64,000 bases of DNA from contig NC_055988.1 of assembly GCF_018446385.1 (NCBI RefSeq), positions 164,808,209-164,872,208 of the forward strand, written 5' to 3'. Positions 16,586 through 44,737 of this stretch are shown piece after piece. The position numbers and the translations under genes were made by a program. Source of the DNA: Zingiber officinale (Eukaryota > Streptophyta > Magnoliopsida > Zingiberales > Zingiberaceae). The stretch's first letter is position 1; every line of letters begins with the position of its first letter. Below the pieces are notes generated by a model, which searched no databases, was not told the origin of the DNA, and saw only the letters and a list, made by a program, of their open reading frames with translations.

Positions 16586-17504
16586 TGTTGGAACCCCAAG
16601 GTGTTTTGATGTGATCAAACAAGCTAAGTTAGGTCATACGTTTGTTTAACCCTTGTGTCTAAGTGTGCAGGAGGTTAGGAACACAGGAAGTCGAGCGGAA
16701 GACGCGGCTAACAAGAAGCACGACACGGGGAGAGAGCCGACGGGCTCAGTACGTCCGAGGGACGAGGTGACCGCGGAAGAGTACACCGGTGGACGAGAAG
16801 AACGTGCGTGACGTTCGAGGGATGAGAAACCGGGAAGGAAGGCTGCTCGAGGAAAAGACCGGAACTTGGGTTCGGGTGAGCCCTATTCCGGATGGCCAAG
16901 ATCACCCAAGCTAGCGGAGGCGGAGCGAACAAGACCCGGACCGAGACAAGCTGAACCGGAGACGAAAAAGTCAACGCTGTTGACTTTGGGTTCCGGGGCG
17001 CCCAGAGCCCTCCGAGGCGCCCGGAACCCTTCCGGGCGCCCGGACCTGGATTTTGACCAGGATCGCATCAAACGCGATCTGATCGTTAGGGGATAAAATT
17101 TTATCCCCCCAGAGCGCCTGGAACCCATTCGGGACGCCTGGAACCCATTCGGGGCGCCCCGACCAGTGCTATAAATATAGCATTGATCTGCAAGTCAGAA
17201 CATCTCACTTGTAATCAGTTTTCTCTGTGCTTTCAATTCTGTTTCTTTTATTTGTGCTGACAACGCCGTAAAGAGGCTACTCCGTCCGAAGGAGATAAAC
17301 AGATAGTGCGCTTACTTTCCTTGGATTAGCAATCCCCTGATTGCAAACCAAGTAAATCTCTTGTGTCTGCTCTTTTCCTTTAGTCTCTTAGTTTTATTAT
17401 TACAAGTGTCTTTTAAATTAGTTAATATCCGAGAAGGGTTTTTGGTTTAATTTTTGTAGGGCAATTCACCCCTCCCCTCTTGCCGGCCTCCAGAGGGACC
17501 TACA
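16586..17504 (+). mobile_element. 5' LTR of gag-only copia (919 bp)
   Basis: Bounded by TGTTGG...CTACA. The TATA region TGCTATAAATATAGCA (17167-17182) is a perfect palindrome. Confidence 0.9.
17167..17182 (+). promoter_or_regulatory. Palindromic TATA box of gag-only copia 5' LTR
   Basis: TGCTATA-AA-TATAGCA: 7-bp arms enclose TATAAATA. In the 3' LTR the palindrome is longer (20243-20262, 9-bp arms). Confidence 0.7.
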
Positions 17505-17505
17505 A

Positions 17506-17522
17506 GTGATATCAGAGCAAGG
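17506..17522 (+). other. Primer binding site of gag-only copia
   Basis: GTGATATCAGAGCAAGG follows the 5' LTR directly. It differs by one base from the usual TGGTATCAGAGC site for initiator tRNA-Met. Confidence 0.8.
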
Positions 17523-17559
17523 CGCTTCAGGAGGACTAACCGCCGATCGAAGAAACAAG

Positions 17560-19020
17560 ATGGCCGGACCAAGCATCGTCCCACCAAAATTCGAGGGAGA
17601 CTTCGCAGACTGGAAGCGACGTATGGAGGTATTCCTAAAAACTGATTTCAAAATTCGGTTTATTATGAAATATGGTTTTGTAGCTCCGATGAATCAAGAT
17701 GGAGAAGAAAAAGAAGAGAGCCACTGGACAAAGAAGGAGCAGAATGAGTCTGTAGCAAACAGCCGTGCGGAATATCACCTGCTGAGCGTGTTGCTGCCTC
17801 AAGAGGTCAACCGCATCGGAAGCTATTCATCTGCCAAAGAACTTTGGGAGAAGTTCCTGGAACTCCACGAAGGCACGTCCGAAGCGAAGCTCGGTAAAAG
17901 AGACATCCTCCGGAACAAGCTAATGAACATCCGACTGGAAAAAGGTGAGAAGGTAGCCAGTCTACACGCAAAGGTAAAAGAACTGATTACTGGTCTCGAG
18001 AACCTCGGAGAAACAAACGGTAACAAATCGGGAAACAATATGCTACGCACTCAACGCGTTTCCCAGAACATCAGATTGGACATCAATCGTCGACGCCTAC
18101 TACATTTCGAAAGACCTGGAGGTAAGTACTTTAGAAGAACTGTTCTCCACTCTTGAATTGCATGAAACCAGGTGTGTAGGTACAAAGGAATCAAGCTAGA
18201 TGATTGCGCTAAACGCAACCAAAAGGGATGAACCCGAGTCAGACTCAGAGGATGATCAGGAAGCGTACATGGTAAGAAACTTTAAAAAGTTTTTTAGAGC
18301 TAATAAATTTAAAGAAATGCAGAATAAAAAAAATCCAAGAAATAGAAGAAGGATGCATTGCTACCAGTGTCAAAAGGAAGGACACCTAAAAGAAGATTGC
18401 CTAGAACTAAAGAAGGACAAAGGCAAGATTCCCAAGAAGCACAAGAACCTAAAAGCTACTTGGGACGACACTTCTTCATCTGAGTCCGAGATTCAATAAT
18501 ATGTTGGGATAACACTGATGGAAAACTACGAAGGACAGAGTACATCAGAACCCAGCATCGATGAAGGGGGAGCGACCTCAGATGGAAGTAGCGAAGCAGG
18601 GGGAGATTCAGGCTTCAAGTCTGATATGGTAAGTGAGGTATGCCTCTTACCCCCTGATGAACTTTATTTTGGTATTAAGGCAATGGCAAAATCCATGTAT
18701 AAATTAGAAAATAAAAATATCAAATTAGAAAATGAAATTTTAGAAATAAAAAGAATTTTGGCAAAATCATGTCTTATAGAGGATTTTGATAAATTGAAAA
18801 TTGAGAATGAGAAAGAGAAACTAAAAGAAGAAATAGAAAGATTAAAAAAATCTAATGGTTCAAATATTTCTACTTTTAAAAATTATAGAGGTTTAAATTG
18901 ATATTATAGATTTCATCAAAGTCAAATTAGAAATATATCAAAAGTCTATCTACCTAGGAAATACTTGGTTAATCCTGTAGGTAGGAACCTCTATTGGGTT
19001 CCAAAAACCTGTTTAATTTA
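17560..19020 (+). pseudogene. gag of the non-autonomous copia, frameshifted
   Basis: The ATG at 17560 opens MAGPSIVPPKFEGDFADWK, a copia gag start (UBN2-type). The frame is lost near 18030 by a one-base shift; the other frame continues with NAFPRTSDWTSIVDAYYISK to a TAG at 18197-18199. A CCHC zinc knuckle (CYQCQKEGHLKEDC) lies at about 18358-18399. A Glu/Lys-rich coiled coil follows at 18660-18900. The product ends WVPKTCLI-stop near 19020, the same point where the Sirevirus-like gag at 36480 ends. Confidence 0.8.
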
Positions 19021-19720
19021 AAATTAAAATTAGACTTAGCATTTTCAGCAAGGAAATTAAACAACTAATTTCTTTATGAGACTTTGTCTAAGGAAGTGGT
19101 TGTTGCTCCAATAACCAAGAAGGTCTAGTGTCTCGCCACGACTTGGAAGCCAAGTATCGAAATGAAAAGTTTAATTGACTAACTGAAAATGTATTAATTT
19201 AAATTACTTAATGTTTTAAAAAGAGTTATTCAATTTGTGTTAAATATTTAAAATTTTTTTCTTGGCTTAGAAATTTTTTTTATCTTAGAAATTGTTTATG
19301 AAAATTGACTTAGAAATTTTTTATGAAAGTTATCTTAGGATTTTTTTTTTTTTTGTAAAAATTGCCTTAAGATTTAAAAAAAAGTCTGACTAAGAATTTT
19401 TTAATTGCCTTAGAATTTTATTTTTAAAAAAAAATATTTTACTTAAATTTTTTTTCTTTTCAAAAGAAAAATTCTGACGAGTGTCTTTTACTTAAACAGT
19501 TTTAAAAAAAATTTTACACTTAAATTTTTTAAATTTACCTTAGACTTGTTTATAACCCCAATTTTTATGTGATCAAAGGGGGAGAAGTATGTTAAGTCAA
19601 GGGGGAGGTAATATAATTTTTCAATTGAAAAATATTTGGACTTATTGGAATATAAATTGTTTTTATTACATATGTTTACCCTAACTTAACTTGGGTTGCT
19701 CACATCAAAAAGGGAGAGAT

Positions 19721-20584
19721 TGTTGGAACCCCAAGGTGTTTTGATGTGATCAAACAAGCTAAGTTAGGTCCTACGTTTGTTTAACCCTTGTGTCTAAGTG
19801 TGCAGGAGCTTAGGAACACAGGAAGTCGAGCGGAAGATGCGGCTAACGAGAAGGACGGCACGGGGAGAGAGCTGACGGGCTCGGTGCGTCCGAGGGACGA
19901 GGTGACCGCGGAAGAGTACACCGGTGGACGAGAAGAACGTGCGCGACGTTTGAGGGACGAGAAACCGGGAAGGAAGGCTACTCGAGGAAAAGGCCGGAAC
20001 TTGGGTTCGGGTGAGCCCTATTCCGGATGGCCGAGATCACCCAAGCTAGCGGAGGCGGAGCGAACAATACCCGGACCGAGACGAGCTGAACCGGAGACAA
20101 AAAAGTCAACACTGTTGACTTTGGGCTCCGGGGCGCCCGGACATGGGTTTTGACTAGGATCACATCAAACGCGATCTGATCGTTGGGGGATAAAATTTTA
20201 TCCCCCCGAGGGCGCCCGGAACCCATTCGGGGCGCTCCGACCAGTGCTATAAATATAGCACTGATCTGCATAGTTAGAACATCTCACTTGTAATCAGTTT
20301 TCTCTGTGCTTTCAATTCTGTTTCTTTTATTTGTGCTGATAACGCTGTAAAGAGGCTACTCCGCCCGAAGGAGATAAACAGATAGTGCGCTTACTTTCCT
20401 TGGATTAGCAATCCCCTGATTGCAAACCAAGTAAATCTCTTGTGTCTGCTCTTTTCCTTTAGTCTCTTAGTTTTATTATTACAAGTGTCTTTTAAATTAG
20501 TTGAATATCCGAGAAGGGTTTTTGGTTTAATTTTTGTAGGGCAATTCACCCCTCCCCTCTTGTCGGCCTCCAAAGGGACCTACA
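19721..20584 (+). mobile_element. 3' LTR of gag-only copia (864 bp)
   Basis: Same termini as the 5' LTR. It differs by many substitutions and one deletion of about 55 bp in the G/C-rich GGCGCCCGGA stretch near 20140, so the insertion is not recent. Confidence 0.9.
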
Positions 20585-20774
20585 TTAACATTATCGTCTT
20601 TCAATTTGACTTTCAACTTACTTATCTGCACATTTCTTGACGATGGGTCAATGAGACTTCGCTTCTGTTGACGTTACTTCTGTGACCGTGTTCTTTCCAA
20701 GCGGCCTTCGGTATTCTTCGGACCGGCGCATTTATAGTGGCCGATTTTTTAACTCAGGGACTTAACGTCGCCGC

Positions 20775-21230
20775 TCGACGATCTTCGAGCCGGGGGGTTT
20801 ATAGTCGCCGGTCCGACTCTAGAGTTTAACGTCGCCGCTCGACGGTCTTCTAGCCGGGGGGTTTATAGTCGCCGGTCCGACTCTAGAGTTTAACGTCGCC
20901 GCTCGACGGTCTTCAAGCCGGGGGGTTTATAGTCGCCGGTCCGACTCTAGAGTTTAACGTCGCCGCTCGACGGTCTTCTAGCCGGGGGGTTTATAGTCGC
21001 CGGTCCGACTCTAGAGTTTAACGTCGCCGCTCGACGGTCTTCTAGCCGGAGGGTTTATAGTCGCCGGTCCGACTCTAGAGTTTAACATCGCCGCTCGACG
21101 GTCTTCTAGCCGGGTTTAACGTAGCCGGTCCGACGTTTAACGTCGCCGGTCCGACGTTTAACGTCGCCGGTCCGACGTTTAACGTCGCCGGTCCGACGTT
21201 TAACGTTGTCGCTCGACGGTCTTCATGTAG
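20775..21230. repeat. 64-bp tandem array of E2 with a 21-bp sub-array
   Basis: About five 64-bp units (landmarks near 20782, 20846, 20910, 20974, 21038, 21102) are followed by four 21-bp units, GTTTAACGTCGCCGGTCCGAC, at about 21113-21205. The 21-bp unit joins two parts of the 64-bp unit with the middle deleted. The stretch 20590-20775 is untranslated element sequence. Confidence 0.95.
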
Positions 21231-25390: not shown

Positions 25391-25912
25391 GAGTGTAACG
25401 ACCCGCCTTCTACTAACTAAGCTATAAGGCCGATCGTCACATTATGCTGTGCTAAACTATTCCCTGACCATCTCTAGAACTAGATGCGGAAGCTGGACTA
25501 ATTAAAATTTTGCTAAGCTGTTAACATTTCTTGGTGCTACATGTACTAAGGAGTGTAATCTAAACTATACCTAACATATACTACATCCCCCATGGTCAAG
25601 GAACTGAAATATATGTTTTCCCAGCTGTTATCAGACCTCCCAATCGATCCACGGATCGATTGGAATAGCCGGATCGATCCAGTGATCGACTCAGCCGGCT
25701 CCTGTATGTTGGTGCAATATCCTTTAGGTCAAGGTTGACTGAGTTGACCAAGCTTGGGTCTTGGTCATAGTTTCGATGTTTGACAATACATGTAGACACA
25801 TGGACAATGCAGGTGCAGTTGTTCATGTGGGGAGATTCTGATCAGGGATTGATCAGTGTGATTGAAGGAGAGTCAAGTAGGTCAAGAGTGACCGGATACC
25901 TGACTAGGAAGT

Positions 25913-26190
25913 CCTAACTGGTATGTTAGGCAGCAGAAGTGAAAGTCCTGGTGAGTGAAGCCAGGCAGAAGGAAAGCCCTAGTGAGTGAAGCTAGGCAGG
26001 TGAAAGTCCTGGTGAGTGAAGCCAGGTGAAAGTCCTAGTGAGTGAAGCTAGGCAGATTGGAAAGCCCTAGTGAGTGAAGCTAGGCAGTGAAAGTCCTGGT
26101 GAGTGAAGCGGTGAAAGTCCTAGTGAGTGAAGCTAGGCGATTGGAAATCCTGGTGAGGAAGCGGTGAAAGTCCTAGTGAGTGAAGCTAGG
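25913..26190 (+). repeat. Array of short hairpin units
   Basis: Units of about 30 bp of the form GTCC...GGCA contain CCTGG-TGAGTGAAG-CCAGG or CCTAG-TGAGTGAAG-CTAGG, with one CCTAA...TTAGG unit at the start. Most stems stay perfect although their sequence changes. Two or three units have lost the 3' half. Confidence 0.85.
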
Positions 26191-26247
26191 CGTATGGAAG
26201 TGAGTGAAGCGGTGAAAGTCCCGTGAGTGAAGCCGTGCAGGGAAAAT

Positions 26248-26439
26248 CCAGATGGATCAAGGATGATCGACATCTGGTGGAAGTCCAAGTAGGACAAGAG
26301 AGGACCGGATACTTGGCACGACGAGTAAAGTCCAAGTGGGTCAAAGGATTGACCGACACTTGGTGGGAAGTCCTAGCAGTCAAAGGAGTGACCGGATGCT
26401 AGGCATGATGTATCAACAGTCAAGGTTGACCGGATGTTG
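26248..26439 (+). repeat. Five nested (two-stem) hairpin modules
   Basis: Outer stems are CCAGAT/ATCTGG (26248-26277), CCAAGT/ACTTGG (26285-26316), CCAAGTG/CACTTGG (26332-26363), CCTAGC/GCTAGG (26372-26403) and CAACA/TGTTG (26414-26439). Four enclose a second stem: GATCA/TGATC, GGTCAA/TTGACC, GTCA/TGAC or GTCAA/TTGAC. The inner stem of the second module has decayed. Confidence 0.85.
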
Positions 26440-26479
26440 GTTTGAGAGGCTTGGGACTTGGTTTTGGGCAAAACCAAGT

Positions 26480-26730
26480 CTTGGATCGATCGGTGGATCG
26501 ATCCAGAGCCGGATCGATCGGGGATCAATGCCTTTCCCCAGCTTCGATCGATTTGTGGATCGATCCGATGTCCAAATCGATCGGATCGATTGGGAAGGCT
26601 GCTTCGCGCGATAAGCGCCGGATCGATCCGTGGATCGATCCGTGTTTCAGAAGCGCGAGGCGCCGGATCAATCCGTGGATCGATCCAAAGCCTCCCGATC
26701 GATTGGGAATATTCGAATCGATCGGGATCC
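26480..26730. repeat. ATCGAT palindrome cluster in Sirevirus-type LTR
   Basis: About ten ATCGAT sites in 250 bp, mostly as pairs such as GGATCGATC-GGT-GGATCGATCC, giving dyads with arms of 8-10 bp. Confidence 0.9.
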
Positions 26731-27269
26731 GACCGTTGCGTCGTATTTGAGCTGCAGGCGTGCGTTGGCTGCAGCAATCTCTTCTCCGATTCACTCCAGA
26801 TTTCTCGCCAGCTCCTCCACAGCACTCACAAAGCTCAGATCGCCAGTTCTTGAAGGATCTTGGAAGTTTTCCAAGTCAAGAGGCAGATCAAAGCCAAGAA
26901 GAGAAGCTAGGGTTAGGGTTTATACTCATTGTAAGCTTGTAATCTTGTATTTCTTGTATCCTTTCCCTCTCTTCTTGTATTGAGTCTTGTAGGGCTTCTC
27001 CGCCCTTGGTAGTTACCATAAAGGAGAGTTTTATTTAGTGGAGGGTGTGTGTGTTGGTGTGGATCCTTGGATTAGTCACCTCTTGTGAGGTGGATACCAA
27101 GTAAACCAACCGTGTTAGCGTTGTGTGATTGTTTCTTTATATTTCCGCTGCATATTCTTGAAGAAACAAGCAACGCCAAGCAACGCCGAGCACCGAGCGA
27201 ACACGACGAGCTATTCACCCCCCCCCCCCTCTAGCTACTTTTGGTCCTAACACTGTATGCGGAACATAG

Positions 27270-27514
27270 GTTGGATCGATCCAGTGATCGATCCAGCATG
27301 CTACTGTGCCCGGGACGATAATTTGGATCGATCGGCTGATCGATCCAAGCTGGTCAATCGATCCATTGATCGATCCCAGAGCCTTCTGTTCGCGACAGAA
27401 ATTGCTGGATCGATCGGCGGATCGATCCAGACGCCTACTGTTCGCGAGACCAGATGCCCAATCGATCCTTCGATCGATTGGAAACTCTCGAATCGATCAG
27501 CTGATCGATTCGAG
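27270..27514. repeat. ATCGAT palindrome cluster in the host LTR
   Basis: Paired ATCGAT dyads resume on the right of the nested LTR and also lie on its left (25640-25690). The last dyad, 27487-27514, is a perfect 28-bp palindrome with half-site CTCGAATCGATCAG. CCAATCGATC-CTTC-GATCGATTGG lies just before it. Confidence 0.9.
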
Positions 27515-29427
27515 TTTCTGATTTCGTGCCCAAGGGTCTGATTTCAGCACTGATGCGTGTCAAAGCCTTTACACAACACTATAAAAGCTAAAGGAAACAT
27601 TCTACGAGGTAATGACTAACATACTAAACATGATTAAGGCATAGAATACTAATTCATGGCATGTAAACACATGGAAACCAAAACTAACAAGGTATTAAAC
27701 TGTTCTCTTGCTAACTAACAGAAACATAAGATAACGCTTGCTAAAAGTACTAATGCATACTGAACACGTTCTAATGCATAATAGAATAAAACTAGATCCC
27801 TAGGATCTTTATTCCAGTTCCTTCCACACACATCTTGATCTGCATTGACCTCCAGCCTCCACTGCTAGTCCATTTTCCTTTTACCTGTATCTGCAGTATA
27901 AAGAAAATAGTATCTGTAAGCTAAAAAGCTTAATAAGAAACCATCTACCTCACTAAAACATGCATACGATGCAAATATGATTTTAAATCATGCTGTTTGA
28001 GAGGATATGCTAAGTATACTGGATAAACTAAACATGACATGGCATATAAGCATACAATCATGGCATATCTAAAGCTGAACATGATATCAATCACATGGTA
28101 TCAATGAAGAACTAAGTTGATACTAAAAACTAAGCTAAGCTAATACTGAACTACTGCTAGGACTGTACTGAATTCACGAACTAATTTGTGAAAGGTTGAA
28201 AACCATATACATATAGTAAGTAAAAATACTAATCATGCTGCTGATGGGCCCTGGCAACTGTACTTGCTGTGCACGCATCCCTAACTAGACCCGGGATTGC
28301 AAGTTCCGAACCTAGTAGGGTTTACTAGGTTAGCTAAACCTAGGGACGACTATGGGAGTCCAACCCAATGGATATCTAATCCAGTACAGTGCTACTGAAA
28401 AGTAAAATACTGAAATAGCTAATACTATTTTGCTGAATCTAGGTTATCTGAACCTAGAACTAGGTTGTTTGAACCTAGAGGCGACTGTGGGAGCCCACCC
28501 ATTCGGACATCTAGTCTCATAAGAGCTGCAATAAAACTGATCATGCTAATTAACATGTTCTATGGCATTTAACTAAATGCCCACTGTATCATAAGGCGGT
28601 GCTAGGCATTTTGTCGAGCATTTGGCGCTCTCTAACTCTTCTCTCGATCGGGGAGACCACCTCTAGGCACCTAGCAGCGTCTAAACCCCTATCTACAGAG
28701 GATACACGTGCTCGGCCCATCTAGAGATGCTCACTAATCCCTAAATCTATGAGAAGAGTTAAAATACACACTATATGCTGACAAAATTCAATAAAACTAA
28801 TCTAATGCATAAAAGAAAACACGCGAGAGCTACTTATACTGCAGGTGAGGGGTTTCTTACCTTGTGTGCTAGATTTCTTACAAATCTAATCGCTAGAAAT
28901 TCCGGTGGAGACGACTTCTCGACGATTCGCTCACGTCCACGTGCTCTACTCGCGGAGGGGAACGTCCTTGTGCCCGAGATGTCACCGGAAGGCACTCCTA
29001 TGGCCCTAGGGATAAAACCCTAGGCTTGCTTGGGTGTTGGCGCCGAGAGAAAGAGAGGAAGAAGGAGTTGGCATCGGTGAGGGTTTGGAGAGGGAGAAGT
29101 TGCCGAACCAAATAAGAGAAATAACTCAAACCAACTTAAGTTTTTAATTTATATTAAGTGGGTAACTAGGCCCAACTCAAATATAAATATAAATGTTTCC
29201 CTTCTCTTGCAGCACGGCCCTGCTGGGTTCACCGGTTACTAAGGCTAACTAAAGGTTTAGCGGACCCGAGAGGTCCCGAGTTCGATTCCCGCTTAAACCA
29301 TTTTACTTTTCTATTTATTTTTGCCACTTCCGATATTCCAAAAATTCCAGAAAAATATCTAATAATTCCAGAAAAATCATAGAATATTCCTAAAATAGTT
29401 TTGAGAATTTTCGGGCGTTACAATGAG

Positions 29428-29586: not shown

Positions 29587-30583
29587 TGTTAGGATCTTTG
29601 TGTTCGGCTAGAGGGGGGGTGAATAGCCTTTCTTTCGTTTTTCACCTACAACTTGTTAGTGGAAGATAAAGGAAACAAATGAACAAGTATGAAAACAAAA
29701 GTTCAATGCTAACTCCCTTTGTTTACTTGGTCTCCACCTCCTTGAGGTGACTAATCCAAGGCGCACACACCCACACAATGAAGTTCCACTATAAACTTCT
29801 CCTTCTCGAATGACAATCGAAGGTGGAGAAACCCTTACACAATCTCCTCTTCCTTTTACAAAGTGAAAGTTAGGATCAGAAGGAAGAGTATGAGTGTCTG
29901 TAGGCTTGAGGATCACTTGATGAGCACTTTTTCGGTTTTAGAACAGTTGATCCTCTCCAAGCTCTTAAGAATTGCTTTTATAGTTTTCCCGACATCAGTC
30001 GACTGGTATACCTATCAGTCGACTGATGGGCTTTAACGGCACTAAGGATTTGACGAGATTTTGAGCCGCCACTTCATAACGGTCATCTACCAGTCGATTG
30101 GTACCATCACCAGTCGACTGGTACTTGCCTCCAGTTACCCTGGCGACATTCTGTCCATTCTGTGCCTTGGTACCAGTCGACTGGTGAAAGTGCCAGTCGA
30201 CTGGTACCTTATACTTCTGAAATTTACAGCATTTTGTACCGTCTCAGTTTTACATTATTTTATACACTTGAATTTACTTCCTTAGCTTAGACTTCAAGCC
30301 TCCAAGCACCTTCCCTCAGCCTTACGCCCCTAGGATGCTTCTGTCTCCACGACTCCTCATCCTTGCGCTTGCCTTCAAGGGCTACCTTTGGCTCCGTCAT
30401 GCTAAGTCTCCTTTTTGCCAATAGATCACACCTCCGGATCTTTCCTTGCCAAAACTTCATACTTGGTCTTTTCTTTGTATCTGCTCACTCAATACTTATG
30501 TTAGATCACAATTAATGCCTAGCTTAAACTATTTTAACCAAACATCAACAATGAGTAATGTCTTGAGCAAGATTGCTCCAACA
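29587..30583 (-). mobile_element. 3' LTR of Sirevirus-like element
   Basis: Plus-strand ends are TGTTAGGATC and GCTCCAACA. It contains six CAGTCGACTG-type palindromes (29997-30205), one with a substitution. The adjoining ATCTCCCCCTTTTTGATG is the polypurine tract seen from the plus strand. Confidence 0.95.
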
Positions 30584-31102
30584 ATCTCCCCCTTTTTGAT
30601 GTTTGGCAAAATGTGTTTAAGTTAGGTCTTTAAATATACAACATCTAGAAAGTATGATGATATTCACGAAGCATAAGCATACAAAATATCTTCATAGAAC
30701 ATGAATGAAGCATAAGCATACAAAGTATAAGCATACAAAATATCTTCATATAACATGAATCATGAATGAAGCATAAGCATACGAAATATCTAACTTAAGA
30801 TATCCACATCTCCCCCTTTTTGCCACACACAAAAGAGGTTACAACTCCCCCTTAATCCATGATATCGTCTAAGAGCAAGGGATAGGAAGACACAAATGAC
30901 AGATAATAAAAGAAGACATATGCGAATATAAAGGAGCTGACAAACCAGCAGTGAAAGAAAATAAGCACGAGTCACATAATGTCATAACACCAGGCGTACA
31001 TCATAGTCAGAAAGCTAAATGTTCGAGATGAACAAAATATAGCACTGCCGAAGCCAAAACACATCTCGACATCACCACACAAAGAAAACCAGAAGCATAG
31101 TC

Positions 31103-32386
31103 CTAGTGATCATCACTGGGAGGAGGTGGAGGAGCCTGGTATGTCAGATCCCAGCGCTGCAGCATCGCATACATATCCGCCTGACGCTGCTGAGAAGCAG
31201 TCCAGTCCTGCCGGAACCCCCGAAACTCCTGAAACCCCTGGCGTACTGTCTCCTCCAGCTGAGTCAATCGAGCCTCGACAGTCACAGGGACTGGATGCGG
31301 TGCCAATGCAGGAGGAGGTACGTCAGCCTCCTCAGCGTCAGAATCATCCGCCTCCTGAGCACGCCATACCATCTCCCCCTGGCGTCGCTCAATACCTGCA
31401 AGAGACATCTGGCGGGCCCCAATCTGATCATAGTCCTTAGATAATTGATGCAGTTGACCCCTCATGACATCGAGACCCCGAGAAGCAAAGAAAGACGTCA
31501 GGATGTGACAGTAAGGCATGTACAACTTCTCATTAGAAGGACTAGAGAAGTGCACGATGGACTCAAAGACGTGAAGAGCGATGTTGATGTCGAGCCGGTG
31601 CTCCAAAGCATACATCATGACCAGATGGGGCAGCCGAATCTTGGCTTGCCCCCGAGTGACTATAGGTAAGATACACCCAATAACAACCTTATAAAGGATG
31701 TTGCTGCGGGCAGACATACGGGTAGCATTGAAGATGCGTCGCAGAGGAGCTCGGGGGGCATTGAAGTAATACTGATGTATCACTTCAATGGACAAATGAG
31801 AGAGTGAATCGGTGAATGGCTCAACAACTGTAGGAAAACACGTAAAGGAGCTCTCAGAAGCCCGACACTCTAGAAAAGACTGGAGAATGCTGGGAGTGAA
31901 CTCAATATCGACACAACCTACACGAGATACCCATGTATGACCTCCACTACCTCTAGGATGCAAATTGATGTAGAATTCCTTACATAAATCCAGATTGACT
32001 AAATGCGTGCAATGCACTAACTTATCTAAACCAAAATACTCAATGATCTCCATGACATCTGGCACAATTGTAGTAAAATAGGTCTGATTCAGATACCGAC
32101 AGGGTATCATAGCGAAATCTGTAGCCGCAAATTGTTGTCGTGCGGCTTCGGATCGGAATCGATCCCCCGAGGGACCGGGAGCAGACTGCCGGGAGGTTCC
32201 CTCACCAGCCCTGCGTTTTTGCCTAACCCTAAATATGGTAATGCAATGCATATGATCCAAAAATAACCCCAAAACAGGGAGAAGAGCACAGAATCACAGC
32301 AAAAACAGCAAAAACAGCAAGGTATTAGGGTTAAATCACACTTGATCTTGAGAAAAGATGAAGGAGAAGGATTACCTGCGTTCCAT
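31103..32386 (-). CDS. Third ORF of Sirevirus-like element (putative plant transposon protein)
   Basis: An uninterrupted reading frame of about 375 codons lies 3' of pol, where Sireviruses carry an env-like ORF. It contains SEAARQQFAATDFAMIPCRY, FGLDKLVHCTHLVNLDLCK and YINLHPRG and resembles the Pfam 'putative plant transposon protein' family (PF20167). The C-terminal third is Pro-rich with a short coiled coil. A start is not obvious in the open frame. Splicing a short exon with ATG at 32384-32386 (donor after 32376) to an acceptor before 32228 would give MERRVRQKRR. No signal peptide or convincing membrane span was seen, so an envelope role is doubtful. Confidence 0.6.
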
Positions 32387-32639
32387 AGCCACGAAACCAA
32401 GGCAGAACCGAGGAAGAAAGAGGTGTGGTGAGGACACGAGCCGACTGGTGTGGAGAGGCCGCAGGAGAAACAAACAGAGCAATGAGGGAAGATGAGGACA
32501 GATCGAGGAAGAGAAGGAGGTTTAGACGGACGGAGAGGACAAGAAACGGCGACGAGCCGCGCTGGAATCCAGGCGGCAGCAGGCGGCAGATGAAACTAGG
32601 GTTTCCATCGGGCCACTGCACGCGGAAGGATATATAAAA

Positions 32640-32770
32640 ACGCGAGTACCAGTCGACTGATGCTTTCATCAGTCGACTGGTGCCTAAAACAGAAACCCAC
32701 AGAATCATTCTGTTCGCAAAGGTCACTGTTACCAGTCGACTGGTACCTGAACCAGTCGACTGATACCAAT
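32640..32770. promoter_or_regulatory. GTCGAC palindromes upstream of the third ORF
   Basis: Four CAGTCGACTG sites repeat the LTR motif just 5' of the third ORF (minus strand). This suggests shared regulation with the LTR; inference only. Confidence 0.4.
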
Positions 32771-33362
32771 TCTGACCTTATTCTGCCCGAATTTCAGAAA
32801 CCTACAGGTAATTATACCAACCTCCAAAAATTCTCAAATTTGGTGAAGAAGTATATTTTAACCTTGTCTATTCGGGAAAAATATGTAGAAAAATATGTCT
32901 ATCATAGATCCTAAGATTGACACATGCTTTAACACTAGTTGGATTATGTAGTATATCGGTGAGTGAAAGTCCCAATTTGAACTTCCCTATAGGTGCTGTA
33001 CCTATATTAGAACAAGGCTTCTTTCTTACACTTCTTGATATGGTATTTTCCATATCATCTTAAATTTCATACAATAGGTTGTGATATTTGTATTTGAAAG
33101 AAATATTCAATCATGTTCAAAGAGCTATGTACACATTAATTGTGCACAAGCCTTCCCAATGATTGGTCCACTTAAGGATTAATGTGACTAGATGTCATAT
33201 TGGCCCAAAGTCATGTATCATGACAAACATGTGGAACCAAGGACATCATCCTAAACATCTCACATGGTATCTAATTGAAGAAATACACAAGCAAGGCTCC
33301 TTAGGGCTATGTGAGAAGAAAAAGAACATAATGTGATGTAACAACATGCGATGCTATACTCA

Positions 33363-36300
33363 CTATTCTACAAAACACATACCAAGTTCCCTCCTAATAG
33401 AGGTGAACTCTACTTCGGGCAAAGGCTTGGTAAAAATATCGGCAAGATTAGATTGAGATTCAACATAAAGTAGTTCAATGTCTCCCCTTGCCACATGATC
33501 TCTAATAAAATGATGTTTCACCTTAATGTGCTTTGTCCTAGAGTGATGCACCGGATTTTTGGTTAAGTTGATGGTGCTAATATTATCACACAACACCTTA
33601 ACTTTAGAATAGTGACACTCATAATCTTCTAAAGTATGCATCATCCAAAGCAATTGAGCTACACAACTACCCATGGCCACATACTCGGCTTCGGTTGTGG
33701 ATAAGGCCACACAAGGTTGTTTTCTACTACTCCAACTTACAAGGGAAGGTCCAAGAAATTGACAACCACCGCTAGTACTTTTTCTATCTAATTTGCAACC
33801 CGCATAATCGGAATCGGTATACCCAATCAACTCAAAATTCCTAGTCCGAGGATACCAAAGACCTACATTAAGAGTACTCTTGATGTATCTCAAAATTCTC
33901 TTTACCGCTACTAAGTGTGATTCTTTGACACATGATTGGTATCTTGCACACATTCCTACGGCAAATATTATATCCGGTCTACTAGCGGTTAGGTATAGCA
34001 AACTACCAATCATGCTCCTATATAGTTTTGGATCAACTAATTTCCCTTCTTGATCACTATCTATCTTGGTATTAGTCCCCATAGGAGTAGATGCTCCTTT
34101 AGCATTTTCCAACCCAAATTTCTTAATAAGTTCTTTAGCAAATTTGGTTTGGTAAACATGGGTTCCTTCGCTGGTTTGCTTGACTTGTAATCCCAAAAAG
34201 AAACTCAATTCTCCAACAAGACTCATTTCAAACTCACTTTCCATGTGTTTGATAAAATCATGAAGAAGTTCATTATTTGTTGAGCCAAAAATGATGTCAT
34301 CAACATAGACTTGTGCAACAAAAATTTCCCCATCCTTAGACTTTAGAAATAATGTTGGGTCAATTGTTCCTCTTCTAAAGTCCTTGGAGATTAGGAAGGA
34401 TGAAAGTCTCTCATACCAAGCCCGAGGTGCTTGTTTTAACCCATATAATGCTTTCTTAAGCTTATAAACATGGTTTGGGCAATCTATATTTTCGAATCCG
34501 GGTGGTTGCTCTACATAAACCTCTTCCTTAATGAAACCATTTAAGAAAGCCGATTTTACATCCATTTGGTGGAGTTTAAAACCCATGTAAGCGGCATATC
34601 CTAATAATATTCGGATGGACTCTAACCTAGCTACCGGAGCATAGGTTTCATCATAATCAAGTCCTTCCACTTGATTGAAACCTCTAGCTACCAACCTAGC
34701 CTTATTTCTAGTGACTCTCCCTTGATCATCCAACTTATTTCTAAAAACCCATTTTGTTGTGACGATTGTACTCCCATTAGGTCTTGGAACCAACTCCCAT
34801 ACATCACTCCTTTCAAATTGGTTCAACTCTTCTTGCATTGCTAAAATCCAATCCGTATCAAGTAAAGCATCATTAATTGTTTTTGGTTCAAGTTGTGATA
34901 TTAGAGCAATTTGACTAGTATGATCCCTAAAGTAGGATCTAGTCCTTACCCCTTGTGCCACATCTCCAACTACTTGATTAATAGGATGATCTTGATGGTG
35001 CCTTAAGGTCCTTGGGGTAATGGAATCATCATTTTTGGAAGTATCATTGTTTACATTGTTTCTTTCATCATCCGAGCCATTTCTTTCTCCCCCTAGATCA
35101 ATACCCCCTAATTGTAGATTTTGCATTTCTTGAGTGATGTTTTGATTATTTTCAATTATATCCTTGTCAATAGAGGATTTTCTAGGGTAAGTCCTAGTAG
35201 ACTCATCAAACTCAACATTAGATGATTCCTCAACCATTTGAGTCCTTTTGTTGTATACTCTATATCCTCTACTAGTGGATGAGTATCCAACTAAAATTCC
35301 CTCATTAGACTTGGGCTCAAATTTTCCTAAGTCATCTTTGGTATTGAGAATATAAACCTTACAATCAAAGACCTTAAAATAGTGAATTGTAGGAATTGTG
35401 CCATTCCATAATTCAAATGGTGTTTTCCCTAAAAACTTATGAATCAAAACACGATTTTGGATATAGCATGCGGTATTAACCGCTTCGGCCCACAAATAGC
35501 TAGGTAGGGAGTATGCATTGAGCATGGTCCTAGCCGCTTCTTGTAAGACCCTATTTTTCCTCTCCACTACACCATTTTGTTGAGGTGTTCTTGGGCAAGA
35601 AAATTCATGTTTATAACCGTTATCCAAACAAAATTTAGAAAAGTTCAAGTTCTCGAACTCTCCACCATGATCACTCCTAATTCTATCAATTTTGATGTTC
35701 TTTTCATTTTCTACCCTCTTGGTAAACCCTATAATAGTGTCTAAAGTTTCCCCTTTGTGTTTTAAGAAATGAACCCAAGTATATCTAGAGTAGTCGTCTA
35801 CTATTACCAAACAATATTTGTTACCCGTTAAAGAGGGTGTTCTATGACAATCGAAAAGATCCAAATGCAATAATTCTAATGGTAATGAAGTGCTAGTTAA
35901 GGTTTTACCTTTATGTGATGACCTTGATTGCTTACCCTCTTGGCATGCATCACATAGTTTATCCTTGATGTACTTGATTTTTGGTAGCCCCTTAACTAGC
36001 TCCATCTTGGCTACCTTGGCTATGTTCTTCATGTTGATGTGTCCAAGTCTTCAATGCCATAGCCATCCTTCTTCTTCTTTAGACATCAAACACTTAATAG
36101 AGGGGTTAGAAGCATATGAAAGATCAACATAATAAAGATTTGCCTTTCTAAATCCTTCTAGCATCACATTCTCAAGATTCTTGTGTTTAACTATACACTT
36201 ATTTGGGTGAAACTCTACATTATATCCGGCATCACATAGTTGGCTAACACTAAGCAAATTAAATCCCATATTTTTAACCAACAAGACTTTATGAATGATA

Positions 36301-36455
36301 ATTTTGGGTGATACCTCAATTGTACCTTTACCTATAATCTTGAGCTTCCCACTATTCCCAAATGATACCGTTCCTTTCTTTATATAGTTTATTGTGGAGA
36401 ACTTGCTCACATCACCGGTCATATGTCTTGAGCAACCGCTATCCACAATCCACAT
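33363..36455 (-). pseudogene. pol of Sirevirus-like element (PR-IN-RT-RNase H)
   Basis: Minus strand. Protease: MWIVDSGCSRHMTGD (Asp-Ser-Gly). Integrase: CDACQEGKQ zinc part, VIVDDYSRYTWVHF (Asp), RSDHGGEFENL (Asp), PQQNGVVERKNR (Glu). RT: HQMDVKSAFLNG (motif A Asp), KALYGLKQAPRAWYERL, QVYVDDIIFGSTN. RNase H: GYTDSDYAGC, STTEAEYVAMGS. The C-terminus is SNLADIFTKPLPE. A TGA at 36048-36050 replaces the Arg expected after WLWH, in the GAG-pre-integrase region. All other catalytic residues are present. Confidence 0.9.
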
Positions 36456-36479
36456 ACTTGCATCCTTTTTCTCTTCTAC

Positions 36480-38147
36480 CTAGACAACATAAAACACACA
36501 ATTCTTTGGTACCCATGCACTTGATTCGGAAATATCATTCAAATATTTCTTAGGCACCCAAGCTTGTCTTGCCTTTCCTTTAGCATTCTTCTTAACATTG
36601 TTTCTATCACTTCTAGTGCCATTAATTAGAGACATGTATGCAACTTCCTTTTCTTTAGGTCTATATCCTATACCGGCTTTGTTGTAAACGGCTCTTTGGT
36701 CTCTAATGATCATATCTAAGTATTTGGATCCATTTGTAAACTTCACTAGACATGCTCTTAACTCAATCACATCATTCTTCAATTTTTCATTTTCTTCCTT
36801 GAGCATGCTTGACTCACTAGATGAACATGCATCAATTTTAATAAGCTTAAGCTTTCCCTTCAAGGTTTTTACCTTAGATTGTGATTTAACAAAAGCATTT
36901 TTGAGATGAGCAATAGTTTTGTAAAGAAATTCTACTTTGGGAGATTCTTTTACCTCATCATCATCACTTGATGATGATTCATCACTTGCTTCCTCTTCAT
37001 TTGATGACTCCTCTTCACTTGACACCTCCTCTTGACTTGATTCATCTTTGCCCTCTTCAAAAGCCATAAAGGCCATATGTCGAGTAACATGGCATAGCTC
37101 ATCTTCATCCGATAAGTCAATGCTTGGTGTATCCCATGTAGCTTGGGCCATCATGGCTTCCTTCTTTTTCTCCTTTTTCTTCTTCTCCTTTTCTTCTTTC
37201 TTCTTTAATTCCGGGCAATTCGGCTTGATGTGTCCTTTCTTGTTACATCCATAACAAGTGACATTAGTATTAAAGTTTGAACTTTGGCTACTCTTACCTT
37301 TTGAGGGTTGAAACATCTTCTTCACATCCTTTCTTGTGAATTTTCTTGATCTTCCCATCATCTTTTTGACATAGTGAGCCACTTCACTTGCCGACATTTC
37401 ATCATCACTATCCAATGATTCTTGCTCGGATTCGGATGATGAGGATTCCACCTTTTCCTTCTTCTTTTTCTTTTCCTTCTTCTCTACAACAAGAGCCATA
37501 CCTTTCTCTTTTGAAACCGCATTAGCTTGCTCATGAAGTTCAAATTCGCAAAATAATTCATCAAGTTTAACTAAAGAAAGGTCTCTAGAAACCTTATACG
37601 CATCAACCATTGAGGCCCATAAGGTGGTTCTAGGAAAGGATTGAAGAACATACCTTACTAGGTCCCTATTGTCAATTTTCTCACCTATAACATGAAGACC
37701 ATTTACTATTTCCTTGAATCTACCGTGCATTTGACTTACGGTTTCATTTGTCTTCATAGTGAAGGTTTGAAGTTGTCCCAACAAAAGATCTCTCTTGGCC
37801 CTTCTTGACTCGCTTGATCCTTCATTTAACTCAATGAGTTTCTCCCAAAGCTCCTTGGCGGAATCGAACGGTCCTACTTTGCTTAGTTGCTCCTTTGAAA
37901 GTCCACATTGTAGGGTTGTTGTGGCTTTTGCATTAGCTTGGGCCTTCTTTGCCATCTCCTTTGTCCACTCCTTGGTAGGAAGAGGTGCTCCCGATCCATC
38001 CTTCGGCTTTTCAAACCCATCTACAACACTAAACCAATTCTCAATATCATTCATTAAATAGTATTCCATTCTACCTTTCCAATATGCAAAGTCATTGCCA
38101 TCAAAGAAGGGTGGTCTAGCGGTGCTATATCCCTCTTGAAACGCCAT
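36480..38147 (-). CDS. gag of Sirevirus-like element
   Basis: 555 residues from the ATG at 38145-38147. The N-terminal FDGNDFAYWKGRMEYYL block is a copia gag (UBN2/DUF4219-type) start. SFPRTTLWASMVDAYKVS lies near residue 170, Lys/Ser/Glu-rich linkers follow, a CCHC knuckle (CYGCNKKGHIKPNC) lies at about residue 300, and a coiled coil in the last third. It ends WVPKNCVFYVV then TAG (36480-36482), in the same frame as pol. It should form the particle shell. Confidence 0.9.
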   Translation of the reverse strand: MAFQEGYSTARPPFFDGNDFAYWKGRMEYYLMNDIENWFSVVDGFEKPKDGSGAPLPTKEWTKEMAKKAQANAKATTTLQCGLSKEQLSKVGPFDSAKELWEKLIELNEGSSESRRAKRDLLLGQLQTFTMKTNETVSQMHGRFKEIVNGLHVIGEKIDNRDLVRYVLQSFPRTTLWASMVDAYKVSRDLSLVKLDELFCEFELHEQANAVSKEKGMALVVEKKEKKKKKEKVESSSSESEQESLDSDDEMSASEVAHYVKKMMGRSRKFTRKDVKKMFQPSKGKSSQSSNFNTNVTCYGCNKKGHIKPNCPELKKKEEKEKKKKEKKKEAMMAQATWDTPSIDLSDEDELCHVTRHMAFMAFEEGKDESSQEEVSSEEESSNEEEASDESSSSDDDEVKESPKVEFLYKTIAHLKNAFVKSQSKVKTLKGKLKLIKIDACSSSESSMLKEENEKLKNDVIELRACLVKFTNGSKYLDMIIRDQRAVYNKAGIGYRPKEKEVAYMSLINGTRSDRNNVKKNAKGKARQAWVPKKYLNDISESSAWVPKNCVFYVV

Positions 38148-38189
38148 TTCGATGCTTCGGTTGACGATGAGTTCTTCCGATGCGTTCCT

Positions 38190-38204
38190 CGCTCTGATAC
38201 CAAT
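38190..38204 (-). other. Primer binding site of Sirevirus-like element
   Basis: On the minus strand, directly after the 5' LTR, the sequence reads ATTGGTATCAGAGCG, the usual initiator tRNA-Met site. Confidence 0.9.
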
Positions 38205-39201
38205 TGTTAGAATCTTTGTGTTCGGCTAGAGGGGGGGTGAATAGCCTTTCTTTCGTTTTTCACCTACAACTTGTTAGTGGAAGATAAAGGAAACAAATGA
38301 ACAAGTATGAAAACAAAAGTTCAATGCTAACTCCCTTTGTTTACTTGGTCTCCACCTCCTTGAGGTGACTAATCCAAGGCGCACACACCCACACAATGAA
38401 GTTCCACTATAAACTTCTCCTTCTCGAATGACAATCGAAGGTGGAGAAACCCTTACACAATCTCCTCTTCCTTTTACAAAGTGAAAGTTAGGATCAGAAG
38501 GAAGAGTATGAGTGTCTGTAGGCTTGAGGATCACTTGATGAGCACTTTTTCGGTTTTAGAACAGTTGATCCTCTCCAAGCTCTTAAGAATTGCTTTTATA
38601 GTTTTCCCGACATCAGTCGACTGGTATACCTATCAGTCGACTGATGGGCTTTAACGGCACTAAGGATTTGACGAGATTTTGAGCCGCCACTTCATAACGG
38701 TCATCTACCAGTCGACTGGTACCATCACCAGTCGACTGGTACTTGCCTCCAGTTACCTTGGCGACATTCTGTCCATTCTGTGCCTTGGTACCAGTCGACT
38801 GGTGAAAGTGCCAGTCGACTGGTACCTTATACTTCTGAAATTTACAGCATTTTGTACCGTCTCAGTTTTACATTATTTTATACACTTGAATTTACTTCCT
38901 TAGCTTAGACTTCAAGCCTCCAAGCACCTTCCCTCAGCCTTACGCCCCTAGGATGCTTCTGTCTCCACGACTCCTCATCCTTGCGCTTGCCTTCAAGGGC
39001 TACCTTTGGCTCCGTCATGCTAAGTCTCCTTTTTGCCAATAGATCACACCTCCGGATCTTTCCTTGCCAAAACTTCATACTTGGTCTTTTCTTTGTATCT
39101 GCTCACTCAATACTTATGTTAGATCACAATTAATGCCTAGCTTAAACTATTTTAACCAAACATCAACAATGAGTAATGTCTTGAGCAAGATTGCTCCAAC
39201 A
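38205..39201 (-). mobile_element. 5' LTR of Sirevirus-like element
   Basis: Virtually identical to 29587-30583. Differences noticed: TTAGAATC against TTAGGATC at the edge, GTCGACTGG against GTCGATTGG, and ACCTTGG against ACCCTGG. Confidence 0.95.
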
Positions 39202-41700: not shown

Positions 41701-44600
41701 CTTTTGTTAATAGTACAAAGAACAAACACAAGGAATAAAACGAAGTACCTATTGAATTTGATAAATTATCCAGTAAAAGGAAATCGAACATTTGTCCTCC
41801 GATCGTAATTTTAACTGATCGATCCAACCAGTCAATTCTCCTCCAAATTGTGCACAATATTATTTATTGAAGCATATATGGAAAAAAAAAAAAAAAAAGC
41901 ATAAAAGTAGATCCGTTATTTTAGTAATCTCTTTAGTATTGACCCCACAGACAGTGACAAATCTAAACAAAAAAAAAAAGTGCTCATAGAAGGAAGTTGG
42001 AGCTTGTCATCTTTCTCGCTGCCCCTGGAACTGCAGCATACTGGTGGAATTTTCCGAGAGCAAGGGGATGCTCAAGCACACCCCCGCTCTCCCCTAGATC
42101 TGCCACTGTCCACGGATATGGAGAGAGGTATAGGTACATAAATCATAGCACATGGTAAGATAAATCATAGATTGTCAATTCTTAAAAATCGATCTCTGAC
42201 CATTACGTTAGAGATATTATGCTTCCATCGCCTACGCTACGTCCTGAGGACAAAAGGAGGGCATAAAAGCAATAGTGATGCACGGACAAGGAGAATCTGG
42301 GCGATTTTCTGCTCTGCTTTATCTTTAACTGCAAGCTTCACTGACATAAATTAAATATTTGGATTACAAACAAAAACAAAAAAATAAGTGAAATGTAGAA
42401 CTTTGGTATTGGTATTGGTATTTAAGGGTTTAGAGAGGTTTGAGACAGAGAGGAGCAAAGTGTTCGGATTTGGGGTTCTACTGTTTAGTGTTTAGGGTTT
42501 GAGATAAAGAGGAGCAGAGTATTGGGATTTGGGGTTTTAGGGTTACTGGAAAAGGAGCTGTTTTTCTTAGGAGTGATTGCTCTGTTTGGAGCTGACCTGA
42601 TGCATGGTCCGTGTGGAGAGGCAGGCATGAGGCATCTTGCTGGGTCATCAAAATAATTTAACTTAGGAGAACATTTTGATTGATCAAAATCAACATGCAA
42701 AGAATAAAAGATTGATATGTTGATTCACATAAAACAGTAATAAAAAATTTAAAATAAAAAATTTAATCATTATTTATCTTCTTAATAAAAAATATATGCT
42801 TGTATTTTAGAACAAACTATAATAATTAAATATAGAAAATATCTCTCTTGATAAATATACGGACCTTAGCTCGTGGACGATACCTTAGATCGTGAAATCG
42901 TCTGTACAAGATTTAATGCTCTTGAAATTAATCCAAGTATCCATGTGTGAATTGGTCCAAGCACCTTGACTCCTTCAATAATTTTTTTAATTTTTTTTTA
43001 ATTTTATTTTAGGATATATTATATGTATTTAGGGTTTAAAATTTTAAGAGTTGAGTTATAATAGGTTTGAGTTAATAAGATTTTTCCTCTAGGGTTCAGT
43101 TTTCCTTTTGGATTATAGTGTTACAGATTAAAAATTTTAGATGCTCATGAAATATATTATATGTATTTAAGATTTAAGATTTAAAAATTTAAGGATTATG
43201 TTATAATAAATTTAAGCTAATAAAATTTTCCTCTAATGTATATATATATATATATATATATATATGTTTAAAATATTTTATTTTTTTTATTTTTAAAAAT
43301 ATATATATAAAGTAAAAATTATGAAAATGAATTGTAAAATATTCACAAATAATGTTCAGAAATAAAATTTATTAATAATATTAATTAATAAAATTCTTAT
43401 TAATATAATTAAAAAATAAAAACTTTTAAAATAAATAAATAAACATGTACTGTCAAGTTTAATCAGATAAATTTAAAATTTAAAAATTTTCAAGCAATTA
43501 ATGAACTAAAAGCTGATAACTTCTAAATTAATCAAATTTAAACTCGTAAAAAAATCTTAATTAAGTTTGAACAAGTATCTCGACAGTTTGATTTATTTTA
43601 ACTTTAACTTAATTTAACTCAATTAACTTATCAAATAAATTTAAACACCATAAAACTTAAAACTTAACTCATTTGCCATCCTACTGACCTACTCCTCCCT
43701 AAAAAAAATATTAGTTTTAGAAACGCAGCTTTACATTTAACAGGCAATAGGAAAAGAGAAGAATGCTCTTCTTTGCATATGATTTATATGTTTAATTTAG
43801 TTTTATTATTTAAAATTTTAGATATTCAATTTTTACTATTTTTAAAATTGACTAATTTAATTTTATAAAAAAATTCTTACTGACCATTGTATAAAAAGCC
43901 CAATGATTCAATATCATAAGTTTTTAACTTCCCAAGTATAACATGTTTGATGAAATTTAAATTTTTATCGTCTAAAAAATCCATCTCATCTATTAGTATT
44001 ACATCAAAGACATGTTATATTATAGTAAAATTGATTATATTCATTCTAAATGTCCTTCTTAATCTATCATTAATCTATCGTTATGTAAAAAAAATATAAA
44101 CTATAATATTAATTTATAATTGATCACATCAAATAATTAGAATATTGATGCTTTTTCTTTATCAAAAATATACGTCCACCGTCCATCGATCTCCATGTAC
44201 CGTTATAGTAAATCTGAGTAGAAGAGACAACTTCACATGCTTAAAATTAGCCGCAGCGGCAGAATGATGGGCGATGGGCCCACACCGCACTGCATTTCCG
44301 TAAACGCCAACGGAGGTCTCAACCGTTTGTTCGGCGTCTTATGTCGTGGCTCATGGTCGTTTGTTCCACCTTTACGACCCTTCTAGCAACTGCCAGACCG
44401 CTCGGCCCTTTATCCCGGCTTCTTCGGTTCTGTTGGTAACGCGACTCCTTGATTGACCCGGTCCGGTCCGGTGGTTAAAAGGGCCTTCCAGTAAAATTGG
44501 GTGGAGCCCATTTCTTCGAAGAGGACAATGATTAAGCCCATCCGTGGCCCATCCACGATGCGCCTTTCGAATCGCGTCTTCTAACGGATCCAGAAACTCT
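41701..44600. other. AT-rich intergenic DNA
   Basis: No gene recognised. It holds a diverged duplicate of about 65 bp with GTTTAGGGTTT-like words (42415-42545), a diverged direct repeat (43010-43110 and 43140-43230), a (TA)n microsatellite (43236-43265) and a degenerate relative of the MITE at 58529 (about 43420-43690). The last 350 bp form the upstream region of the protease gene. Confidence 0.6.
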
Positions 44601-44640
44601 TCTTCCCCAATCGCCTCCGCAACTGACGCCGGTGCGGTGG
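44500..44640 (+). promoter_or_regulatory. Putative promoter of the aspartic protease gene
   Basis: Three GCCCAT words (AGCCCATTTC, AAGCCCATCC, GGCCCATCC) resemble site II (TGGGCY) elements common in plant core promoters. No clear TATA box is seen. Confidence 0.35.
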
Positions 44641-44737
44641 AGTTACCCCTCCTCCGTTTTCTTCAACAGCTTTAAATTACCTCACATTCTGTCTTCTGCT
44701 CCCCCACTCGGCCTTGCCCGCTGCCTCAGCCGATCTC

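Follow-up and report, generated by a model that had tools for sequence, protein, structure and literature searches.

A solo long terminal repeat (LTR) of Sirevirus type in Zingiber officinale was found to carry, in its U3 part, an array of hairpin units whose arms differ from unit to unit but match within the intact units. The stretch analyzed, called the window below, comprises 64,000 nucleotides of contig NC_055988.1 (positions 164,808,209 to 164,872,208), and the LTR occupies positions 25707..27252 of its forward (+) strand (1,546 bp, TGTTGG...CTAACA), as delimited by its ends and by identical 5-bp flanks, CTGTA. The paired change of the arms is real, and it is less independent than it looks. 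We favor, at a little short of an even chance, the reading that this is a regulatory palindrome array acting as DNA in U3, whose arms would be kept matching largely by template switching and whose nested units would recruit WRKY factors.

An earlier note had described serial hairpins at 25913 to 26439 whose two halves change together. We counted 18 unit positions, 13 of them with a continuous outer stem of 5-7 bp. Units were indeed present from 25911 to 26442, but one (u0, 25871-25905) lay outside the range first described and four (u7, u9, u11 and u12) were broken, and the joint change of both halves held for the intact units only. The simple block (25911..26240, + strand) consisted of 12 unit positions, 8 intact and 4 broken, with tandem periods of 24, 53 and 87 bp. 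Its intact stems (5-6 bp) were CCTAAC/GTTAGG once, CCTGG/CCAGG twice and CCTAG/CTAGG five times, and the loop TGAGTGAAG occurred in 10 of the 12 units. Two unit types, duplicated in tandem, make up much of the simple block, whose covariation is thin, since it amounts to one A-T/G-C pair alternating between the two duplicated types, plus u1. Three of the broken units (u7, u9 and u11) had CGGTG as a common 3' arm; this looks like CCAGGTG after a loss of 2 nt, spread by tandem duplication and left uncorrected. The nested block (26246..26442, + strand), recognized from its stem list and its folding, held five units, n1 to n5, with outer stems of 6-7 bp: CCAGATG/CATCTGG, CCAAGTA/TACTTGG, CCAAGTG/CACTTGG, CCTAGCA/TGCTAGG and TCAACA/TGTTGG, the last (n5) made of five Watson-Crick pairs and one G-T. 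All five had been credited with an inner stem; we found one in four, while n2 (26283-26318) had none. Unit u0 (+ strand) was also nested, with an outer stem AGTCAAGT/ACCTGACT of 7 pairs out of 8, that is, one mismatch, and an inner stem GGTCA/TGACC read from the sequence. Altogether, the intact outer stems represented 8 distinct sequences with spacers of 6-18 nt, and a CC/GG clamp was present in 12 of the 13 intact units.

The agreement of arm with arm was measured by permuting the 3' arms among units. Over all 18 units, 76 of 90 outer pairs were Watson-Crick as against 52.06 after permutation, and none of 20,000 permutations was as good. When only the 10 distinct arm pairs were used, broken ones included, 39 of 50 pairs matched (22.12 permuted; 0/20,000), and the 8 distinct intact stems matched at 24 of 24 variable pairs (12.76 permuted; 3/20,000), although this last test left out u0 and the four broken units beforehand and is hence partly circular. 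The permutation treats units as independent, and with tandem kinship among them the figures are not true probabilities; the use of distinct arm pairs lessens this problem but does not remove it. When the 3' arms of the 8 intact stems were slid by 1-3 bases, only 5 to 15 of 50 pairs formed, compared to 49 of 50 without the shift. The permutation and slide controls led us to reject a plain satellite or a slippage array lacking symmetry. Units n2 and n3 (CCAAGTA/TACTTGG and CCAAGTG/CACTTGG) differed by one clean A-T/G-C double change, and several other arm changes were swaps such as A-T to T-A or G-C to C-G, with no intermediates seen. The distinct outer stems, u0 included, contained 56 Watson-Crick pairs, one G-T and one mismatch (58 pairs). 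If wobble pairs make up about 10% of the pairs in structural RNAs, the chance of finding at most one among 58 would be 0.017, and at a share of 5% it would be 0.21. Because wobble intermediates are few and pairs are swapped, arm copying or DNA symmetry fits better than stepwise RNA compensation, though the wobble argument is suggestive only. The proposal of the earlier note that paired change implies a conserved structure was sustained only in part: the paired change is there, but template switching gives the same pattern without selection (PMC8794818; statements taken from this and the other papers cited refer to the excerpts available), tandem duplication inflates the number of units, and an apparent 2-nt arm deletion stayed in place in three of them.

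The outer CC/GG boundary was nearly constant while the inner arms were free but matched and differed among units. This would suit single-stranded U3 hairpins or cruciforms read by their shape by an integrase, a recombinase or a replication protein, with a logic like that of the integron attC site, in which fixed short end motifs enclose variable but complementary inner arms. The likeness to attC is an analogy only, since there is no integrase, there are no cassettes and the setting is different. We consider such a recognition array extremely improbable: stems as short as those here (5-7 bp, spacers of 6-18 nt) make weak cruciforms, broken units persist, and no protein partner or use was found, nor was one sought.

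The number of stems exceeded chance most clearly in the nested block, where 6 stems of at least 6 bp were present against 0.91 expected and none of 200 shuffles reached that number. In the simple block, stems of at least 5 bp numbered 9 against 2.77 expected (1/200 shuffles) and those of at least 6 bp 1 against 0.59 (89/200). Folding was expressed as a z score of the minimum free energy relative to 100 dinucleotide shuffles. The z score was -1.4 for the simple block, -3.0 for the nested block (26240-26440), -3.5 for the 5' part of U3 and -3.2 for R/U5, and it reached -6.9 in the adjoining canonical block of palindromic repeated motifs (RM; 26480-26745). Likewise, none of the 110-nt segments of the array folded below -40 kcal/mol (0/46 simple, 0/19 nested, 0/65 in all), in contrast to 36 of 36 in the RM block (26460-26745), 31 of 34 in the palindromes of the right flank and 39 of 639 in the background. 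The array is structurally modest, and it is the neighboring RM block that folds strongly. A scan of 25600-27300 against Rfam gave no family at the gathering score; there were two matches below it, both in the RM block, and a known Rfam RNA was rejected on that account.

These results bear on the possibility that the hairpins are a selected RNA structure, kept by compensatory selection either in genomic RNA, at its 3' U3, or in transcripts that read through U3, with a role in stability, dimerisation, packaging or reverse transcription. Arms that agree, both over all 18 units and among the 8 distinct intact stems, are consistent with this, as are the n2/n3 double change, the folding of the nested block below shuffles and the inner stem of n1, in which pairing is kept while the sequence has changed. 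We nevertheless regard it as quite unlikely. Four of the 18 units are broken, the 58 pairs hold a single wobble, no Rfam family came up to its gathering score, and no 110-nt segment of the array folded below -40 kcal/mol. The array lies upstream of the RM boxes and of the putative promoter, and from LTR biology it would therefore lie in U3, outside the 5' leader of the genomic RNA. Packaging signals are usually located in the 5' leader. By its position in U3 the array would be present only near the 3' end of genomic RNA, although the match to a TATA box is weak and we saw no transcript. We accordingly rejected a 5' packaging signal, and the RNA packaging structure that had been suggested before is disfavored, as some 300 bp separate the end of the array from the putative TATA box downstream.

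The RM block (26481..26726, + strand) contains GATCGATC-type boxes arranged as seven dimers, with arms mostly agreeing and an observed/expected (o/e) CpG ratio of about 1.6, and it showed the same trait as the units. In the solo LTR and its flanks, 28 of 31 hexamers formed 14 dimers, while those at 25673, 25848 and 27365 were unpaired by rule. The inner flanks of these dimers matched at 33 of 42 pairs compared to 20.49 after permutation (2/20,000); with two flank letters the result was 18/20,000 and with four 3/20,000. The flanks varied as CCA/TGG, TGG/CCA and CGA/TCG around a common core, and one dimer (27353-27378), in which none of four flank pairs matched, was kept in the count. Similarly, an intact-looking Sirevirus at 29587-39201 had RM dimers that form hairpins of 16, 15 and 13 bp; the last of the three (CATC...GATG) differed in its matched letters from the first two (TACC...GGTA). 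Since RM dimers show agreement of arm with arm too, the covariation of the units is, judging from these data, one local instance of a more widespread trait of the palindromes in such LTRs. The RM block also bears on a further possibility, that the palindromes yield double-stranded RNA that feeds silencing, as has been proposed for the LTR palindromes of maize Sireviruses, in which case the array would be recognized by the host and not used by the element. Palindrome-rich regions of Sirevirus LTRs are described as small-RNA hotspots in the accessible parts of two papers (PMC10760457, PMC5311732), and every RM-block segment passed -40 kcal/mol. With no segment of either array block doing so, this explanation would fit the RM block, not the units, for which we think it very improbable.

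The array could also be a neutral by-product, in which tandem duplication and template-switch correction of the arms build and tidy hairpins in a fast-evolving part of U3, while the array itself has no function. The tandem periods, the two dominant stem types of the simple block and its z score of -1.4 all agree with such an origin, and so does the apparent 2-nt loss in the 3' arms of u7, u9 and u11. The clamp in 12 of 13 intact units and the loop shared by 10 of 12 simple units speak against it, though plain recent duplication could give both. The distribution of W-boxes described below speaks against it as well, both through the enrichment in U3 and through the inverted W-box that is similarly placed in another LTR pair. 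We judge a functionless array unlikely, yet it is the alternative that deserves the most weight.

The W-box, the site bound by WRKY factors, has the motif TTGAC(C/T). A TTGACY search found an inverted pair, GGTCAA-agga-TTGACC, as the inner stem of n3 (26339..26354, + strand), and further W-box cores in U3 at 26378, 26418, 26426, 25727, 25735, 25744, 25871 and 25880. The inner stem of n5 was also made of inverted W-boxes (AGTCAA-gg-TTGACC), u0 and n4 each contained one W-box, and n1 and n2 contained none. The U3 part (25707-26485, 779 bp) was enriched, with 10 sites against 1.21 expected and no shuffle out of 200 reaching this number, and when 779-bp segments were taken across the 64 kb in 100-bp steps, 10 sites were reached in just one of 633, the segment that starts at 25701. 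A second LTR pair occupies 16586-17504 and 19721 to about 20584, and in both of its LTRs an inverted W-box palindrome, AAAGTCAAC...GTTGACTTT, stands directly before GGCGCC palindromes. The inverted W-boxes in the inner stems point to regulation at the DNA level, and the suggestion of the earlier note of a regulatory structure or a DNA recognition array is compatible with them.

In the regulatory reading, the palindromes mark the regulatory U3 region of a Sirevirus-type copia LTR, which holds a second, upstream array of interrupted palindromes beside a usual-looking RM cluster just before the promoter. The position of the array upstream of the RM boxes and putative promoter is that published for Sirevirus RM clusters. 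The array may work at the DNA level as promoter-proximal regulatory repeats, and the inverted W-boxes of the nested units may recruit WRKY factors in stress or immune responses. It would have grown by tandem duplication, and template switching within a hairpin, by DNA polymerase or by reverse transcriptase during the life cycle of the element, would overwrite one arm with a copy of the other; selection for symmetry would add to this to some degree. Template switching is a published source of multi-base compensatory changes (PMC8794818, in the part available).

Several observations weigh against this reading. Folding of the whole simple block is no stronger than that of shuffled sequences (z -1.4), and R/U5 also folds below shuffles (z -3.2), which makes the fold score unspecific on its own. 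The hairpin density of the array is ordinary: 11 stems fall in the 500-bp bin that starts at 25501 and 9 in the one from 26001, and as many or more were found in 24 and 41 of 128 bins, respectively. The wobble argument stands on 58 pairs and an assumed wobble share, an ancestor-descendant pair showing a template switch was not seen, and in 4 of the 14 RM dimers no more than two of the four flank pairs match. As regards the WRKY sites, the whole window is mildly enriched in W-boxes (98 against 76.9), and the LTR of the intact Sirevirus has none. The inner stem of n1 (GATCA/TGATC) keeps its pairing without a W-box, which favors structure over a binding site, and n2 lacks an inner stem altogether. 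The outer arms vary among units, unlike a fixed protein site, and the W-boxes account for the inner stems only.

The hairpins of U3 were not confined to the units, and because u0 and other U3 hairpins lie outside it, the range of 25913 to 26439 was rejected as the whole feature. In the 5' part (within 25727..25856, + strand) we found GGTCAA/TTGACC at 25727-25749, TGACCAAG/CTTGGTCA at 25745-25767, CACATG/CATGTG at 25797-25829 and CTGATCA/TGATCAG at 25838-25856. The segment 25707-25864 had 4 stems of at least 6 bp against 1.06 expected, and 4 of 200 shuffles had as many. Where the array gives way to the RM block, a stem search also gave an 11-bp hairpin, GACTTGGTTTT/AAAACCAAGTC (26455..26480, + strand). 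Perfect hairpins per 500 bp were most numerous elsewhere in the window, at 19001-19500 (42), 43001-43500 (37) and 7501-8000 (34). No further copy of the array was present in the 64-kb window, and pattern scans of viral_contigs returned no stretch. A search of viral_contigs that used the reverse transcriptase (RT) domain gave one pattern match and no relative. A 15-base pattern occurred in at least 118 stretches of genome_contigs; the 80 that were listed had one match each and came from bacterial or archaeal records. These were taken as chance matches, a 15-base pattern being too short. In a literature search, sequence pieces of the unit were matched in 6 papers, with a single 12-base piece in each, and judged by title no paper of the six concerns plant retroelements.

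The assignment of the LTR as Sirevirus type, already made in the earlier note, is supported, because it has a polyC signal, palindromic RM boxes, a 3' part in common with an intact Sirevirus, TG...CA ends and a 5-bp target-site duplication. The duplication, CTGTA, lies at 25702..25706 on the left and 27253..27257 on the right and was identified by the identity of the flanks. The polyC-rich integrase-type signal, CTATTCACCC...CTCTAGC (27211..27235, + strand), stops 17 bp before the LTR terminus; in the accessible text of the description with which we compared it, the Sirevirus signal is about 21 bp from the LTR end (PMC2829016). Over 104 bp, the 3' part of the solo LTR was 78% identical to both LTRs of the Sirevirus at 29587-39201. 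The RM boxes comprised 13 GATCGATC-type octamers at 26484-26723, and seven dimers were counted. Their core is ATCGAT and lacks the CGG-CCG signature, in which it resembles Tnd-1, the published exception with the RM ACAATCGATTGT (PMC2829016, in part). CpG o/e was 1.60 and 1.66 at a GC content of 0.57 in the 200-bp segments from 26501 and 26601, a CpG island as judged from these two values in 200-bp segments. In the segments starting at 25701 to 26301 the ratio was 0 to 0.77. A putative, degenerate TATA box, TATTTGA (26744..26750, + strand), follows 17 bp past the last RM dimer and is a weak match to the published cTATAA/TAT/AAg; in the available description of Sirevirus LTRs, the CpG island is soon followed by a cTATA(A/T)A box (PMC2829016). 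The same source gives a CA/ATTGG junction and a TATCAGAGC primer-binding site after the 5' LTR as marks of a Sirevirus, and the solo LTR is without an internal domain. Self-comparison found no second copy of it within the window.

The window is plant DNA in which domain matches revealed abundant nested retroelements. Palindromes of the GATCGATC type flank the solo LTR on both sides (25642-25679 and 27274-27510), and ACTATAAAAGC is found at about 27579-27589. Since the flanks hold GATCGATC palindromes of their own, the solo LTR appears to have landed in the palindrome cluster of another, related element. The intact-looking Sirevirus (29587-39201, - strand) has LTRs that are 99.7% identical over 998 aligned bp, a target-site duplication GACTT, and copia gag, integrase and reverse transcriptase domains. 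Its 5' LTR junction, CTAACA-ATTGGTATCAGAGC, equals the published Sirevirus junction, as given in the accessible text of PMC2829016. RM boxes around AGTCGACT are present in its LTRs, with four more at 32651-32761. A 396-aa frame (31106-32293, - strand) lies between these linker RM boxes and the 3' LTR, the position of the envelope-like gene of Sireviruses, and has a weak Pfam match to Transposase_32 (42.9 bits against a cut-off of 45). The RM boxes just upstream of this frame fit the pattern of envelope-bearing Sireviruses in the excerpt available (PMC2829016). Another element of about 4 kb (16586-20584, + strand) has LTRs about 90% identical, a target-site duplication TTAAC and TATCAGAGC after its first LTR, and from the junction CA-AGTGA-TATCAGAGC it is probably Sirevirus-like. 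Another Sirevirus LTR fragment is perhaps marked by four AGTCGACT boxes at 52625-52704 together with a minus-strand polyC string near 52251. Two related tandem arrays were found at 132-657 and 20715-21224, far apart from each other and with their matches shifted by 64 bp. Of the seven frames scanned, just one was a non-transposon gene, a plant aspartyl protease / xylanase-inhibitor-like gene (TAXi_N, TAXi_C) at 44627-46312 (+ strand).

A broader proposition is that in Sirevirus-type LTRs complementarity itself is the conserved trait: sequences would drift freely, both inside a single LTR and between families, template switching from arm to arm, perhaps in the course of reverse transcription, would restore symmetry, and the element would need symmetric sites or hairpins as such. 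We offer this as a conjecture and consider it doubtful. If it were true, the array would record how template switching has shaped sequence in nature, and it would form a second structural module next to the RM boxes. The available part of PMC10760457 raises, as an open question, why palindromes that invite silencing by small RNAs are kept in plant LTRs. With eight distinct matched stems in one LTR, selection for pairing could be tested directly against mutational arm copying, given copies of the family. The array also suggests that such palindromes incorporate pairs of WRKY sites, which would link the activity of the element to plant stress or immune signaling.

Clusters of palindromes in Sirevirus U3 regions, and their links to regulation and small RNAs, are already known (PMC2829016, PMC10760457 and PMC5311732, each as far as accessible). 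Among the open-licence papers listed in our searches, no title or opening of an abstract described interrupted palindromes arrayed in an LTR with arms that covary from unit to unit. According to the portion available of Bousios et al. 2010 (PMC2829016), at least 8 palindrome copies are clustered in U3 upstream of the promoter and are CpG-rich, and their sequence varies among families while symmetry is kept; within an element they are copies of one consensus palindrome with 66.5-100% identity. The solo LTR is alike in its CpG-rich palindrome cluster in U3 upstream of the promoter. It is unlike them in having a second array upstream of the RM block, with interrupted palindromes, longer spacers, arms that vary from unit to unit and nested inverted W-boxes, and the units, with 8 distinct outer stems, are not copies of one consensus palindrome. 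Maize Sirevirus LTRs (2016, Genome Res, as reported in the accessible parts of PMC10760457 and PMC5311732) likewise have complex, variable palindromes in their regulatory region; those consist of CACCGGAC...GTCCGGTG boxes with strong folding and small-RNA peaks, whereas the array here folds modestly. The copia element EVADE/ATCOPIA93 is activated by WRKY binding at W-boxes of its LTR (PMC12786077, in the excerpt available) and is thus comparable in having WRKY sites in a copia LTR, while the sites here are predicted and form inverted pairs nested in hairpin units. Finally, the perfect stems and multi-base compensation in one event that Monttinen and Loytynoja 2022 describe for template-switch hairpins, in the part of PMC8794818 available, resemble what we observed, where such events are suggested by the comparison of units within a single LTR.
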